From NCBI GenBank assembly GCA_019247695.1, contig JAFBAP010000148.1:1-36311 (forward strand): 36,311 nucleotides of DNA. Reading direction: 5' to 3'. The stretch comes from Verrucomicrobiota bacterium (GTDB lineage Bacteria > Verrucomicrobiota > Verrucomicrobiia > Chthoniobacterales > JAFAMB01). Positions within the stretch are counted from its first letter, which is position 1, and every line of letters begins with the position of its first letter. A model generated the notes under the pieces. It had not been told where the DNA came from and searched no databases. It saw nothing but the letters and a program-made list of their open reading frames with translations. The translations under genes were made by a program, and so were the position numbers. Below, piece after piece: positions 27,027 through 36,311 of the stretch.

Positions 27027-27147
27027 GGTGCCCGCCAAATCGCCGTGCCCGCCGTATGACCCGGCACCCGACACCCGACACCCGCGACTCGTTACCCGCT
27101 ACCCGTTACCCGTTACTCGTTACCCGTTACCCGTTACTCGTTACCCG

Positions 27148-28143
27148 CTACCGGTTGATCCAGATGCCACGGTAAACCCGCCGGTCTTCCTGAGGCGGCG
27201 GCAGAGTATATTGGGCGTCTCGCGCCGAGGGACCATTTCGCTGCCCCGGAAGGGCGTGCAATTCTCTAAGCGTCTCTTGATCGAGCCGGCCGGTCACCGG
27301 CAGCCCTTCGTCCTGTTGAAACACTGCGACAGCTTCCGATATGGCCCGTCCCGGCATACCATTTACGTCGCCGCGGTAAACGCCGCGCCGGCCCAGGAGC
27401 ACCTGGACGGTGTAGATTACATTTCGCTGCACCTGTCGCGGTGCCCGCTCATACACGGAACCGGCGAGAAATGATCCAGACGCGGTCCAACCGAATTCAT
27501 AATCGCCGGAATCATCGGACGGGGGCACGGCAGGGACGGCGCGTTCGCCGGCTTCGGGCCGCTCCGCCGGTGCCTCGTACGGATCATCCGGCCGGTCGCC
27601 ATTGTAGCGTTGGTCGCGGTCCCGGTCCGAATCGCCGCGATCAGGCTCACGGGCGTCGTCGCCCCGATCAACGGGAGCGGGCGCCGGCACACTTCGCACG
27701 CTCCGGTTTGCAGACGCCGGAGGGTTACTGTTACTGGTCGCGGGCGGTGTTTTCTTGACCGGGGACGGGGACGCAACGGCGTGACTCGGAGGCTTGGAGG
27801 GAGTATGACCGGCGACCGGCGGCGCTTTTTCAACCGGAGGCGGTTCCGGCATGACTTGATTCCAACCCCTGGACGGGGTGCGGCCGGCCGCAGGCGATCC
27901 GGCATTCCCCCCTACCCCGAGCGACCGCAAGGTTTCGGTATCAGCCTCGCCGGTCACCCGCAAGCCATACCGGATCTGGTAACGACGAAGCGCGGCGGCG
28001 GTTTCAGAGCTGTTCTGCCCGGTCACCTCGCCGTAATAAAAACCCTGGTCTTTCAGCTTCTGCTGAAGCGTGCGCGTGACATCATCCGCGCATGAGAGGG
28101 TGACCAACCCTAACCAGCACACCAAAAAGACGTGTAATTTCAT
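27148..28143 (-). CDS. Peptidoglycan-binding protein with two PG_binding_1 domains
   Basis: A 331-residue exported protein. A hydrophobic signal segment at 1-18 ends in LSC, so lipid attachment is possible. The first peptidoglycan-binding domain (about 22-75) has LQQKLKDQGFYYGEVTGQNSSETAAALRRYQ; a proline-rich and then Asp/Arg-rich low-complexity linker spans about 90-220; a second binding domain (about 240-300) has VQVLLGRRGVYRGDVNGMPG. No catalytic domain is present. The start overlaps the stop of the amidase gene by 4 nt (ATGA), so the two are translationally coupled and probably act together on the cell wall. Its TAG stop lies within a heptamer repeat. Confidence 0.85.
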   Translation of the reverse strand: MKLHVFLVCWLGLVTLSCADDVTRTLQQKLKDQGFYYGEVTGQNSSETAAALRRYQIRYGLRVTGEADTETLRSLGVGGNAGSPAAGRTPSRGWNQVMPEPPPVEKAPPVAGHTPSKPPSHAVASPSPVKKTPPATSNSNPPASANRSVRSVPAPAPVDRGDDAREPDRGDSDRDRDQRYNGDRPDDPYEAPAERPEAGERAVPAVPPSDDSGDYEFGWTASGSFLAGSVYERAPRQVQRNVIYTVQVLLGRRGVYRGDVNGMPGRAISEAVAVFQQDEGLPVTGRLDQETLRELHALPGQRNGPSARDAQYTLPPPQEDRRVYRGIWINR

Positions 28144-28970
28144 AAAGACTCTCCCGCCTTGCCGGGATGATCCCCAACCGTGATTGCTTCCGGCACCGCC
28201 GCCACCGACACGCTCGAGCGATAGAGAGCGATTCCCTTCGCGATCGCTCCGGTCAGCTTCGTCCGAAAGGCGGGATCCGTGAGCGCCTTTGCATCCTCGG
28301 GATTGGTCAGAAATCCGCACTCGATCAGCAACGCAGGCATGTCGAGGTTGCGAAGCACAAAAAAGTTAGCGGTTCTTATTTCATGATGATCGCACCGCAA
28401 AGTCTCACCAAGGCTATTCTTGATTGCACCGGCGAGTTGCGCCTCGGAGATGGCCAGCGCCTCCAAACCTGCAGAAGTTTGCACCACGGTTGCCGGAAAG
28501 GCCGGGCTCTTGGTTTCAGCGTGGTAAATCTGAAAGCCGCGGGCACTTGCGTTGTGCGCGTAGTTGCAGTGGAGGCTGACAAAGATCGCGCCCGGCACAG
28601 ATTGGGCGAATTTTATCCGGTCCGGCAACGAAACGTAGGTATCGTCGTCACGGGTCAGCACCACCGTAAAGCCCAGGTTGCGCAACTCGACGGCAAGCCG
28701 GCGCGCCAGGTCGAGGCTGATCTTTTTCTCCTGCAATCCGTGGGCCGAAGCCCCGGTGTCATTACCTCCGTGACCGGGATCGATTATGACGGTGTCGAAT
28801 CCTGCCGGCAACTGGTGAACCGGCGCCGGCGGCGACACCGGTGCTTCAAACGGCCCCGGCAACTCGGGCCATAAAACGCACCAGACAACGGAGATAACCA
28901 AAACGGCCCCGAGCCACGGGGCTAACCGCAGCGACCATTGCCGCCACCCCGCTCTGCCTTTTGCGCGCAT
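28140..28970 (-). CDS. N-acetylmuramoyl-L-alanine amidase (Amidase_3)
   Basis: A 276-residue membrane-anchored, zinc-dependent amidase that cleaves the bond between muramic acid and the stem peptide. A single membrane helix lies at about 15-34. Zinc ligands and catalytic residues are in place: H67 (DPGHGG), E81 (QEKKIS), H134 (SLHCN) and E217 (LLIECGF). ATG at 28970, 31 nt after the prcA stop; an upstream in-frame start would overlap prcA. It is coupled to the peptidoglycan-binding gene downstream. Its place directly behind proteasome genes makes a common transcript likely. Confidence 0.9.
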   Translation of the reverse strand: MRAKGRAGWRQWSLRLAPWLGAVLVISVVWCVLWPELPGPFEAPVSPPAPVHQLPAGFDTVIIDPGHGGNDTGASAHGLQEKKISLDLARRLAVELRNLGFTVVLTRDDDTYVSLPDRIKFAQSVPGAIFVSLHCNYAHNASARGFQIYHAETKSPAFPATVVQTSAGLEALAISEAQLAGAIKNSLGETLRCDHHEIRTANFFVLRNLDMPALLIECGFLTNPEDAKALTDPAFRTKLTGAIAKGIALYRSSVSVAAVPEAITVGDHPGKAGESL

Positions 28971-29001
28971 CCCACGGGTTTTTACCTTCCCCAAAGATTC
29001 C

Positions 29002-29778
29002 TCAGGCGCAGAAACGCGCAACCACCTTTTCAAGCTCGCTGAATGACACCGGGGCAAAAGTCACCCGCGCTTTTCTCTCCAGCACGGCAGCCTCGGGGGT
29101 GTACTTAGGAAGGTTTTCACCGAGAAATGCACGCAGCGAATCGGCATCCGGCAATTCCTGGTGGTCTTCGTCTGCGCTGAAAAGGCCTACGCCCCAAGCT
29201 CTGACGGCGAATTCAACTGCGTCCTCAAAGGACTGTGCCGGCGACAGGCCCTGCAGATAAGTCTCGACCTGCTGGGCTGCCCGTTTGGTTCCCGCGATGA
29301 TACCGAACCATTCTCGCCGCGATCCGATGCCCATGTTACTCGCCTTGATGGTACCATCGTAATCAAGGCGGATAAACAGGTCGGTTTCCTGCGTTTCACC
29401 GACTTCGGCGAACAACACGCGGGCCAGGTACGGCGCGCCGTAAATCTGTTCGAAAGCCTGCTTCAACGCCGGGCTGAAAGAATAAGTGACCATTCTGCGC
29501 AACGAGACGTCTGCGGAAGATCGGGTAAAACCCTCACCGCTGGCCAACTCGATGGCGCTCATGCGCAGCCGTTCGATGTCGCCCGGGTGACCCACGGCGC
29601 CCATCGCGATCCGGTCATAAACCTCGAATATTTTGCGCCGATCCCGGCCAAACGTCAGAAGCAGCTGCCCTTCCGGGTAGCTTATTCCGATCGTGGGGCT
29701 GCCGGGCGAAAGCTCATTTTCGATGTATTCGCGCCGGTTGGCGATCGCTTCTACCCAACGGAACGGTTCATCAATCAT
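29002..29778 (-). CDS. prcA: 20S proteasome alpha subunit
   Basis: A 258-residue protein of the bacterial proteasome alpha family, which forms the outer gating rings of the 20S core. It lacks a catalytic N-terminal threonine and has the alpha-type N-terminus (FRWVEAIANRREYIENEL), followed by TIGISYPEGQLLLTFGRDRRKIFEVYDRIAMGAVG-like core strands; length is close to actinobacterial PrcA (about 250). It overlaps prcB by 4 nt (ATGA), so the two subunits are translationally coupled, as in actinobacteria. The C-terminus ends in RFCA. The regulatory ATPase that would dock on it is not encoded in this window. Confidence 0.92.
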   Translation of the reverse strand: MIDEPFRWVEAIANRREYIENELSPGSPTIGISYPEGQLLLTFGRDRRKIFEVYDRIAMGAVGHPGDIERLRMSAIELASGEGFTRSSADVSLRRMVTYSFSPALKQAFEQIYGAPYLARVLFAEVGETQETDLFIRLDYDGTIKASNMGIGSRREWFGIIAGTKRAAQQVETYLQGLSPAQSFEDAVEFAVRAWGVGLFSADEDHQELPDADSLRAFLGENLPKYTPEAAVLERKARVTFAPVSFSELEKVVARFCA

Positions 29779-30572
29779 GCATTGCCAAACTGGTAAAGCT
29801 CGCTTAACCGCGAGTCGGAAACGGTGGTAATACCCTTCTCATTGATGGTTTTGATGATCGGGTAAATTTTCCCGGATCGATCCACCCCGCCGGTCGCCGT
29901 ATCGGCCTCCGCCGCGGTGTCCAAGGCCTGCAGCGCCAGACGAATCGAGCTTTCCTCGTCAAGTTCCCGGACGCGTTTGGAACCCCATCGGTTCTGGTAA
30001 TAAAGCACGCTGCGGACCGCGGGCGACCCTGAACCGCTGGATGCGTAATCGGCGGCTTCGAACTGAGCGCCCATCGCGTCATAAAAATAGACCTTGGCGG
30101 GATCGGCGCTTCCGGAGTCATAAGTGGCAAACAGCGGTACGACCACGCCGACTCCCTGCATGACCATGCCGAGGTTTTCGCGCAGCAACTTTGACAAGGC
30201 GCGCACCTTGCCCTCCACACTCATTTCCTGCAACTGGCTGCGCCGGTAAAACTGGAAAGAATGCTCCAGAATGCGCGCCATTTCCCAGGCCGTGGCCGGC
30301 GAACCGGCGATGGCCATCACCGAAGCGCGGTCGATTTCCAGGACTTTGTCGGCCCGGTCATACATGACGATATTGCCGGCCGTCGCGCGCCGGTCCCCGG
30401 CGACCAGCACGCCATCACGGAATTTAAACGCCAGGATGGTGGTTGCCTGGACCTCAACGGGAGCAGCGGCCGTCCGTTGCACCGCCGGCGGAACGGACGG
30501 CAGCCAACCCTGGCTTCGCAGCAGGGACGGGAAGTCCCGCGGAGCGCCCTCAGGGCGTTGCGAAAAATCCAT
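29775..30572 (-). CDS. prcB: 20S proteasome beta subunit (catalytic)
   Basis: A 265-residue precursor of the proteolytic beta subunit. A 43-residue propeptide ends before the TTILAFKF segment; after self-cleavage T44 would become the N-terminal nucleophile. The other catalytic residues are at the correct spacing: D60 (position 17 of the mature chain, in AGDRRAT) and K76 (position 33, in DKVLEI). A conserved IAGSPATAWEMARILEH segment follows. The start is 5 nt after the stop of the UBact-like gene. The beta-before-alpha order with the modifier in front is the arrangement known from Pup- and UBact-proteasome operons. Confidence 0.95.
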   Translation of the reverse strand: MDFSQRPEGAPRDFPSLLRSQGWLPSVPPAVQRTAAAPVEVQATTILAFKFRDGVLVAGDRRATAGNIVMYDRADKVLEIDRASVMAIAGSPATAWEMARILEHSFQFYRRSQLQEMSVEGKVRALSKLLRENLGMVMQGVGVVVPLFATYDSGSADPAKVYFYDAMGAQFEAADYASSGSGSPAVRSVLYYQNRWGSKRVRELDEESSIRLALQALDTAAEADTATGGVDRSGKIYPIIKTINEKGITTVSDSRLSELYQFGNA

Positions 30573-30577
30573 TCCGA

Positions 30578-30754
30578 TTACTGACCGGTACGTTGGCGGT
30601 AGCGCTTGCTTTGGTTTGGATCAACCTTGCGCATGCGCTTGAGAAGATCTTTGGTGTCGGGCTTGGAAACATCAGGCGAACGGGGACCGTCGCCGCCCCC
30701 CTGTTTTGGTTCCCAAGGAGCAGGTGCTGGTGGTTTTTGCGTCCTTTCGGGCAT
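30578..30754 (-). CDS. ubact: UBact-like ubiquitin-like modifier (Pup analogue), 58 residues
   Basis: A short gene directly before prcB (5-nt gap). The product begins MPERTQKPPAPAPWEP, has a flexible Gly/Pro-rich middle (GGGDGPRSPDVSKPD) and a basic helical C-terminal part (TKDLLKRMRKVDPNQSKRY) ending RQRTGQ. Length, GGDGP core, PDV.(K/R)PDT..LLKRMR.VDPNQ..RYRQR pattern and C-terminal Gly-Gln agree with UBact, described in several Gram-negative phyla as the counterpart of Pup. Such modifiers are ligated through the C-terminal residue to lysines and mark proteins for the proteasome; a terminal Gln needs deamidation to Glu by a Dop-like enzyme first. There is a weak AGG element about 10 nt before the ATG. 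Confidence 0.93.
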   Translation of the reverse strand: MPERTQKPPAPAPWEPKQGGGDGPRSPDVSKPDTKDLLKRMRKVDPNQSKRYRQRTGQ

Positions 30755-30815
30755 GGCGCAAACCTACCGGTTTCGGACCAAGAAAGCAACTCCCTCCCGC
30801 AGGTTACACCGGGAG

Positions 30816-31361
30816 TCACGGTTGATCCGCCGGACTGGGCGACTGCGCCGGGTTGGCGGAATTGGCCGGCGGCGGAATCTTGATGGTCTGGCCCGCCTGC
30901 AGTTTTTTGGCATCCCCGATCTTGTTAAGATGCTCGATGTCCTCGACCGTAACACCGAACTGCTTGGCGATCTGCGTCAGCGTTTCACCCCGTGCCACGG
31001 TATGCGTCCGCGTATTGGCGGGCTCGACTGGAAGCGCCCTTTCGACGCCGACCGTTGCAGGCGCAGCGGCGCCGGCGTTGGTACTTGCGTTTGGGGTGGG
31101 CGAAGCCGCGACGGCAGGGGCGGGCGGCGCCGGCGGAGGTGGAGGTGGAGGTGGTGGGGTCGCCGGCCGTTGCTGTCTGATCGCGTCATTAAGTTTGTTA
31201 ACCTGCTGGGATAGTTTGTCGATCCGTTCTTGCTGCGCCTTCAACTGCGCCTTAATGGCTTCGAGGTCCCTGGTGGCAACAGAACCTTTGTCTTGAGCCA
31301 ACACCGCACTCGCTCCTGCTACGATGGCAATCAGCCAACCGCACACGCTTTTGCCGTCCAT
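30816..31361 (-). CDS. LysM-domain exported protein with coiled coil
   Basis: A 181-residue protein with a signal peptide (1-22, ending VLAQ), a predicted coiled coil at about 31-64 (IKAQLKAQQERIDKLSQQVN), a run of nine prolines and an Ala/Pro linker, and one LysM domain at about 118-165 (HTVARGETLTQIAKQFGVTV then LNKIGDAKKLQAGQTIKIP). LysM binds N-acetylglucosamine in peptidoglycan. The upstream 33 codons of open frame are repeat-like and excluded; ATG at 31361. It lies 61 nt upstream of the UBact-like gene on the same strand and may share its transcript, which would begin a cell-wall/proteasome/cell-wall gene order. Confidence 0.85.
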   Translation of the reverse strand: MDGKSVCGWLIAIVAGASAVLAQDKGSVATRDLEAIKAQLKAQQERIDKLSQQVNKLNDAIRQQRPATPPPPPPPPPAPPAPAVAASPTPNASTNAGAAAPATVGVERALPVEPANTRTHTVARGETLTQIAKQFGVTVEDIEHLNKIGDAKKLQAGQTIKIPPPANSANPAQSPSPADQP

Positions 31362-31735
31362 GGTGCCTCTGTACAACCAGGGTCGAAACCGTGCAACCGG
31401 CGAGTGACAGGTAGAGTTCGGCGTTCGGCGTTCGGAGATGCCGTGCGTACCGTTCAGCAATCACTTTTCATCCCACGCCTCAAAACCCGTAAGTCCGGAT
31501 CCTGGACCGTTTCCGCGTTTTCCGTGTCCGCCGCGAATCCCCTCACCCGGTGCGAGCGCGGCGCCGCCTCCGCTCCGAACTCCAAACTCCGAACCCCGAA
31601 CTTCTTCCCCCTCTTCCCGCCGTGGTCGCCGTGGCTCGCCGTGTGAACTCTGTCGTTGTGCCCGCGTTTAGCCGCCGTGGCCGCCGTGTGACCGAACTTT
31701 GCTCGACACCCGGCACCTGACCCTCGACACTCGGA
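31362..31735. repeat. Intergenic repeat mosaic
   Basis: No gene. TTCGGCG heptamers at about 31411-31437, CCGAACT-type heptamers at about 31574-31605, CCGCCGTGGTCGCCGTGG units at 31617-31690 and CGACACC heptamers just before the modA start (31702-31733). Part of this mosaic extends the modA frame upstream artificially. Confidence 0.8.
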
Positions 31736-35968: not shown

Positions 35969-36311
35969 TGAGGTCGGAGCTCGGAGGTCGGAGTTCGGAG
36001 GCGTCGTAGAACCGGGTCCGATCTCCCCCGAGGGTCACGCTCACACGGCGGGAAAACAGAATCATCCGCAGAACCCGCAGAAGAACGCAGAAAAGAGAAA
36101 ACGTCCACAGATTACACAGATTAAGAGGACTTGGCGGTAAATCTAAGGTTGACACTCGCACCTAACCTCCATGATGCCGCTCCGAACTCCGAACTCCGAA
36201 CTCCGAACTCCGAACTCCGAACTCCGAACTCCGAACTCCGAACTCCGAACTCCGAACTCCGAACTCCGAACTCCGAACTCCGAACTCCGAACTCCGAACT
36301 CCGAACTCCGA
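35969..36311. repeat. Intergenic repeat mosaic ending in a long CCGAACT heptamer array
   Basis: No gene. GGTCGGAG/TTCGGAG heptamers (35972-36000), then a module from 36057 (CAGAATCATCCGCAG ... CACAGATTACACAG ... GTTGACACTCGCACC) that copies 21109-21243, then from about 36180 a perfect tandem array of CCGAACT with about 19 units that runs off the end of the window. The short copy at 21220 has only three units, so unit number varies between loci. Confidence 0.95.

Follow-up and report, generated by a model that had tools for sequence, protein, structure and literature searches.

The window, that is, the whole 36,311-nt stretch of DNA analyzed here, belongs to a Verrucomicrobiota MAG (5.19 Mb, 191 contigs, 96.7% complete) and carries a UBact gene followed directly by prcB and prcA, the genes of a 20S proteasome (Table 1). 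The UBact product reads MPERTQKPPAPAPWEPKQGGGDGPRSPDVSKPDTKDLLKRMRKVDPNQSKRYRQRTGQ up to its stop codon and contains the GGDGP, LLKRMR.VDPNQ and RYRQR motifs and the Gly-Gln end that the earlier note had listed; on re-translation, every one of these sequence details proved correct. No start other than the ATG at 30754 is possible, as the frame is closed by a TAG four codons ahead of it, and UBact relatives begin with the same or a very similar, MPERTQK-type N-terminus. The UBact stop ends at 30578 and the prcB ATG stands at 30572, leaving the 5-nt gap that had been taken as strong context for the gene, and prcB and prcA overlap by 4 nt. Both the gap and its weight as context stand, as adjacency to prcB is kept across relatives: prcB lies on the UBact fragment in 79 of the 80 fetched relatives, and the remaining fragment ends, at a contig end, 114 nt past UBact. 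In 49 of these 80 loci, the stop codon of UBact shares one base with the first ATG of the prcB frame, an arrangement that suggests translational coupling and of which the 5-nt gap in the window is a mild variant.

Table 1 Features of the UBact locus and the proteasomal ATPase gene of the same genome
Feature	Location	Strand	Evidence
UBact, 58-aa prokaryotic ubiquitin-like modifier, end RTGQ	30578-30754	-	NF033388 84.1 bits, PF20513 80.6 bits; purifying selection
prcB, 20S proteasome beta subunit, 265 aa	29775-30572	-	TIGR03690 4e-52 (below curated cut-off), PF00227 8.2e-28
prcA, 20S proteasome alpha subunit, 258 aa	29002-29778	-	TIGR03691 8e-17 (below curated cut-off), PF00227 over cut-off
Gap between LysM-protein gene and UBact, 61 nt, place for any promoter of its own	30755-30815	-	Sequence
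LysM-domain protein gene, upstream neighbor, outside the system	30816-31460	-	PF01476 3.7e-14
Probable N-acetylmuramoyl-L-alanine amidase gene, neighbor downstream of prcA	28140-29057	-	ORF, named by eye from sequence
ARC/Mpa proteasomal ATPase, C-terminus SISDVI	8083-9774 of L016, contig C134	-	ARC match 1.2e-132

A scan near UBact, including the 61-nt gap upstream of it, found no sigma-70-like promoter. A terminator-like site at 30574-30588, the sole site found, was disregarded because the number of such sites is below chance expectation. Several relatives likewise have the LysM-domain gene beside UBact, with its orientation differing among them. On the other side, the amidase-like ORF is followed by a peptidoglycan-binding-like gene (27148-28320, reverse strand), and similar genes occur in many relatives of the order; an ORF resembling the amidase lies 3' of prcA in most of those whose loci extend that far. 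This cell-wall gene neighborhood downstream of prcA is conserved in the order.

The UBact ORF is a genuine member of a known family already catalogued in curated NCBI and Pfam models. A profile search, set beforehand as a refutation test of the UBact identity, matched NF033388 (NCBIfam) over residues 7-58 and PF20513 (Pfam) over residues 17-58, with scores above the respective cut-offs of 35 and 27.8 bits and E-values of 5.6e-24 and 7e-23 in the two libraries. UBact was reportedly described by Lehmann and colleagues in 2017. The earlier note had called the gene short and easily missed; short it is, but such genes are not generally overlooked, because the curated NCBI model names them. Besides UBact, only the irrelevant DUF3563 was listed at E up to 10; no Pup profile appeared in this search, although very weak matches can be lost to the HMMER filters, and identity with actinobacterial Pup was rejected on that ground. 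Purifying selection on the frame is strong, with median proportions of 0.77 for synonymous and 0.13 for non-synonymous differences in comparisons with 74 relatives of equal length. The protein of the closest relative (L086) is identical at a pS of 0.17, and the UBact of a same-genus genome (G358) is also identical to that of the window. A chance or non-coding frame, for which short length is the sole supporting point, is thus refuted by profile E-values near 1e-23 and by non-synonymous change far below synonymous change, and we give it a negligible probability.

All 80 fetched relatives end in G[QE], as RTGQ in 66 and as RTGE in 14. AlphaFold2, run on 13 sequences, predicts short helices at residues 34-42 and 48-56 and an unstructured N-terminal half (mean pLDDT 67), and this predicted fold fits a mostly disordered, Pup-like tag. 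A PDB search returned no UBact relatives among solved structures (best E 1.1, unrelated), and no viral UBact copies were confirmed. UBact is present in a single copy in the genome of the window, where a search for a second gene found none. In another genome (G352), a second, divergent UBact ending in RYRQRSGQ (7609-7782 of L069, forward strand) has no proteasome genes nearby and accompanies a normal UBact-prcBA locus.

Searching the window's genome family by family for pathway parts revealed two proteins of the Pup_ligase family. The first, on contig C134, is Dop-like (best match Dop, 1.4e-146) and adjoins the ARC gene, and the second, on contig C161, is PafA-like (best match PafA, 9.2e-99) and lies away from the other genes of the system. 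Six parts, UBact, PrcB, PrcA, Dop, PafA and ARC, are therefore encoded at three loci of one genome. TIGR03686, TIGR03688, TIGR03689, TIGR03690 and TIGR03691 were all matched, each below its curated cut-off, so that we only infer functional orthology; the cut-offs of these Dop, PafA, ARC, PrcB and PrcA models were probably set on actinobacterial proteins. The window's PrcA matches mycobacterial PrcA at 3.7e-9. As the enzymes for attaching and removing the tag and the motor that feeds the proteasome occur in the same genome, this bacterium very probably has every part of a ubiquitin-like disposal system. Conjugation of UBact is a putative function assigned by homology with pupylation, in line with the earlier statement that the function of UBact in any Gram-negative host is mostly inferred; to that statement can now be added that the required enzymes are present.

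The key residues of the proteasome are retained. The predicted mature N-terminus of PrcB is Thr44, which aligns with the residue at which solved bacterial beta subunits begin. Across 19 PrcB sequences, the catalytic Asp60 and Lys76 are invariant and Thr44 is found in 18; all 19 PrcA sequences likewise retain the activator-pocket lysine, which alignment with mycobacterial PrcA places at Lys49. The only sequence lacking Thr44 comes from a locus (L083, genome G439) in which UBact has lost its C-terminus and the frame runs towards a prcB from which the region of the Thr nucleophile is missing; this run-on reflects a deletion or misassembly.

UBact and the ligase family occur together across both samples of genomes. 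Of 289 genomes across the phylum, ten have UBact over cut-off and the same ten carry Pup_ligase, in two copies each; two more UBact matches were sub-threshold, came without a ligase and were taken as chance. The 213 genomes of the window's order include 111 with UBact and 121 with Pup_ligase. In the subset with a completeness of 90% or more and a contamination of 5% or less, UBact and the ligase family occur together in 52 genomes, one genome (G294) has UBact alone and one (G456) the ligase family alone. G294, a 96% complete MAG, combines a UBact containing a Gly-rich insert with prcB and prcA (L073); a search of it found no Pup_ligase family (PafA/Dop) protein and no strong ARC. Its system is possibly decaying, or contigs may be missing. 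Such a genome is what one would expect if UBact were a small, non-conjugated cofactor or adaptor of the proteasome that needs PrcBA alone, and the orphan UBact of G352, which has no prcB beside it, can be listed on the same side. Against this, UBact is otherwise accompanied almost without exception by two Pup_ligase family members, and all 80 fetched relatives keep the G[QE] end that ligation requires, making a cofactor role very improbable.

Proteasomes in bacteria are commonly regarded as a speciality of actinobacteria that is sporadic in other phyla; in this order, the UBact set is common. Verrucomicrobial homologues of Pup/UBact have been on record since 2008 (PMC2588565), and a 2020 paper called Dop and PafA very sporadic there (PMC7947786). 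By contrast, Dop and PafA are common within this order. Named UBact relatives are Verrucomicrobiota, Spartobacteria and Chthoniobacterales MAGs, and in a contig scan for UBact the best 80 matches listed were all verrucomicrobial or PVC; from the type of these relatives we take the host to be most likely a Chthoniobacterales-type bacterium and infer that it lives in soil.

We propose, with a probability of about 93%, that UBact is a Pup-type degradation tag that works with Dop, PafA, ARC and PrcA/PrcB. In favor of this pathway we counted the profiles, frame conservation, linkage to prcB, the presence of Dop, PafA and ARC, co-occurrence, the G[QE] end, the active-site residues and the predicted helices; on the opposite side we counted the TGQ end, the missing Pup profile match, the lack of GQYL, the sub-cut-off TIGR matches and G294. 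Several steps can be modeled on actinobacterial pupylation. First, UBact would be co-transcribed with prcB and prcA, and its translation would probably be coupled to that of PrcB and PrcA. Second, the depupylase/deamidase homologue Dop would convert the C-terminal Gln to Glu, after which the ligase homologue PafA could join the side-chain carboxylate of this Glu to lysines of target proteins. Next, the N-terminal coiled coils of ARC, the Mpa homologue, could bind the C-terminal helical part of UBact, and the ARC ring would thread and unfold both tag and target, passing both on to the PrcA/PrcB chamber for cleavage by PrcB Thr44. Alternatively, Dop could remove the tag.

Conjugated UBact could instead serve chiefly as a mark for regulation or storage, as is thought for pupylating actinobacteria that lost the proteasome. 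Some actinobacterial pupylation loci are known to lack proteasome genes (PMC3511204), and an ATPase without the classical docking tail would also suit such a mark. Nevertheless, UBact lies directly 5' of prcBA in nearly all relatives, and PrcB and PrcA have retained their active-site residues and pocket lysine, respectively; we therefore regard a mainly regulatory or storage role as unlikely and favor the degradation tag.

How the ATPase of such a pathway would reach the proteasome is a separate matter. Mycobacterial Mpa docks via GQYL at its C-terminus; the penultimate tyrosine of this tail corresponds to that of the eukaryotic HbYX motif, and the tail is believed to pair with a lysine conserved in the alpha subunit (PMC12288473, PMC8755798). 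Neither a GQYL nor an HbYX docking tail is present in the ARC of this genome, which ends in SISDVI, or in 35 distinct ARC tails drawn from the window's order and a second family of the same class (f9). Of these 35 tails, 34 have Val and one has Ile as the penultimate residue, and 31 end in Ile and four in Val, whereas the linker after the last domain varies both in length (12-18 residues) and in sequence. Because an almost fixed free terminus that follows a variable linker resembles a docking motif, V-[IV]-COOH may have replaced GQYL. We see an even chance that UBact-type ATPases dock on and open the proteasome via an X-Val-Ile/Val free carboxylate instead of GQYL/HbYX, in which case the terminal carboxylate of ARC would continue to pair with Lys49, the conserved pocket lysine of PrcA. 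If this model were true, a penultimate tyrosine would be no general requirement for ATPase-proteasome coupling. We found no mention of a V-[IV] ATPase tail in the literature covered, which is an incomplete part of the whole.

Gene order provides another difference. Iyer et al. 2008 described the Pup gene as invariably next to a PafA-family gene (PMC2588565), and a 2012 review called the order of pupylation genes 'rigidly conserved' (PMC3511204). In family f9, which we suggest consists of Methylacidiphilum relatives, ARC-dop-UBact-prcB-prcA-pafA form a single cluster. In the window's order, this arrangement is broken into three loci, with UBact-prcB-prcA, ARC-dop and pafA in separate places. 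The split is not merely a matter of fragmented assemblies, because the UBact genes of two genomes (G167 and G013) are embedded deep in large contigs (737 and 846 kb), and dop and pafA are found elsewhere, on different contigs. In the window's genome, likewise, UBact adjoins neither dop (C134) nor pafA (C161); such adjacency is a trait of the described loci (PMC2588565, PMC3511204) and does not define the family. The unlinked loci and the ATPase tail are concrete, testable departures from the mycobacterial model.

Comparison with described systems places the locus more broadly. With UBact as modeled by NF033388 and PF20513 it shares the near-full-length profile match, the RTG[QE] end, the prcB neighbor and Dop, PafA and ARC in the genome; the distribution of the pathway over three loci rather than one cluster is different, and nothing excludes membership. 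At 58 residues and with an RTGQ end, the product resembles the Methylacidiphilum Pup homologue (Iyer et al. 2008, PMC2588565) in lying within 50-90 residues and in its C-terminal Gly-Gln/Gly-Glu, and both genomes have proteasome genes and two PafA-family proteins. In Methylacidiphilum, however, Pup adjoins a PafA-family gene, whereas here only prcB is adjacent. The Pup/Mpa/proteasome system of Mycobacterium tuberculosis has the same six-component set and the same Thr/Asp/Lys proteasome active site, but UBact has no Pup profile match and ends in TGQ where Pup has GGQ, and the ATPase tail is V-[IV] here and GQYL there.

Finally, the window starts and ends within tandem heptamer arrays, which probably broke the assembly; three arrays were seen, at 21-101, 27080-27156 and 36180-36311 (ACTCGTT, CGTTACC and, in ~19 copies, CTCCGAA).
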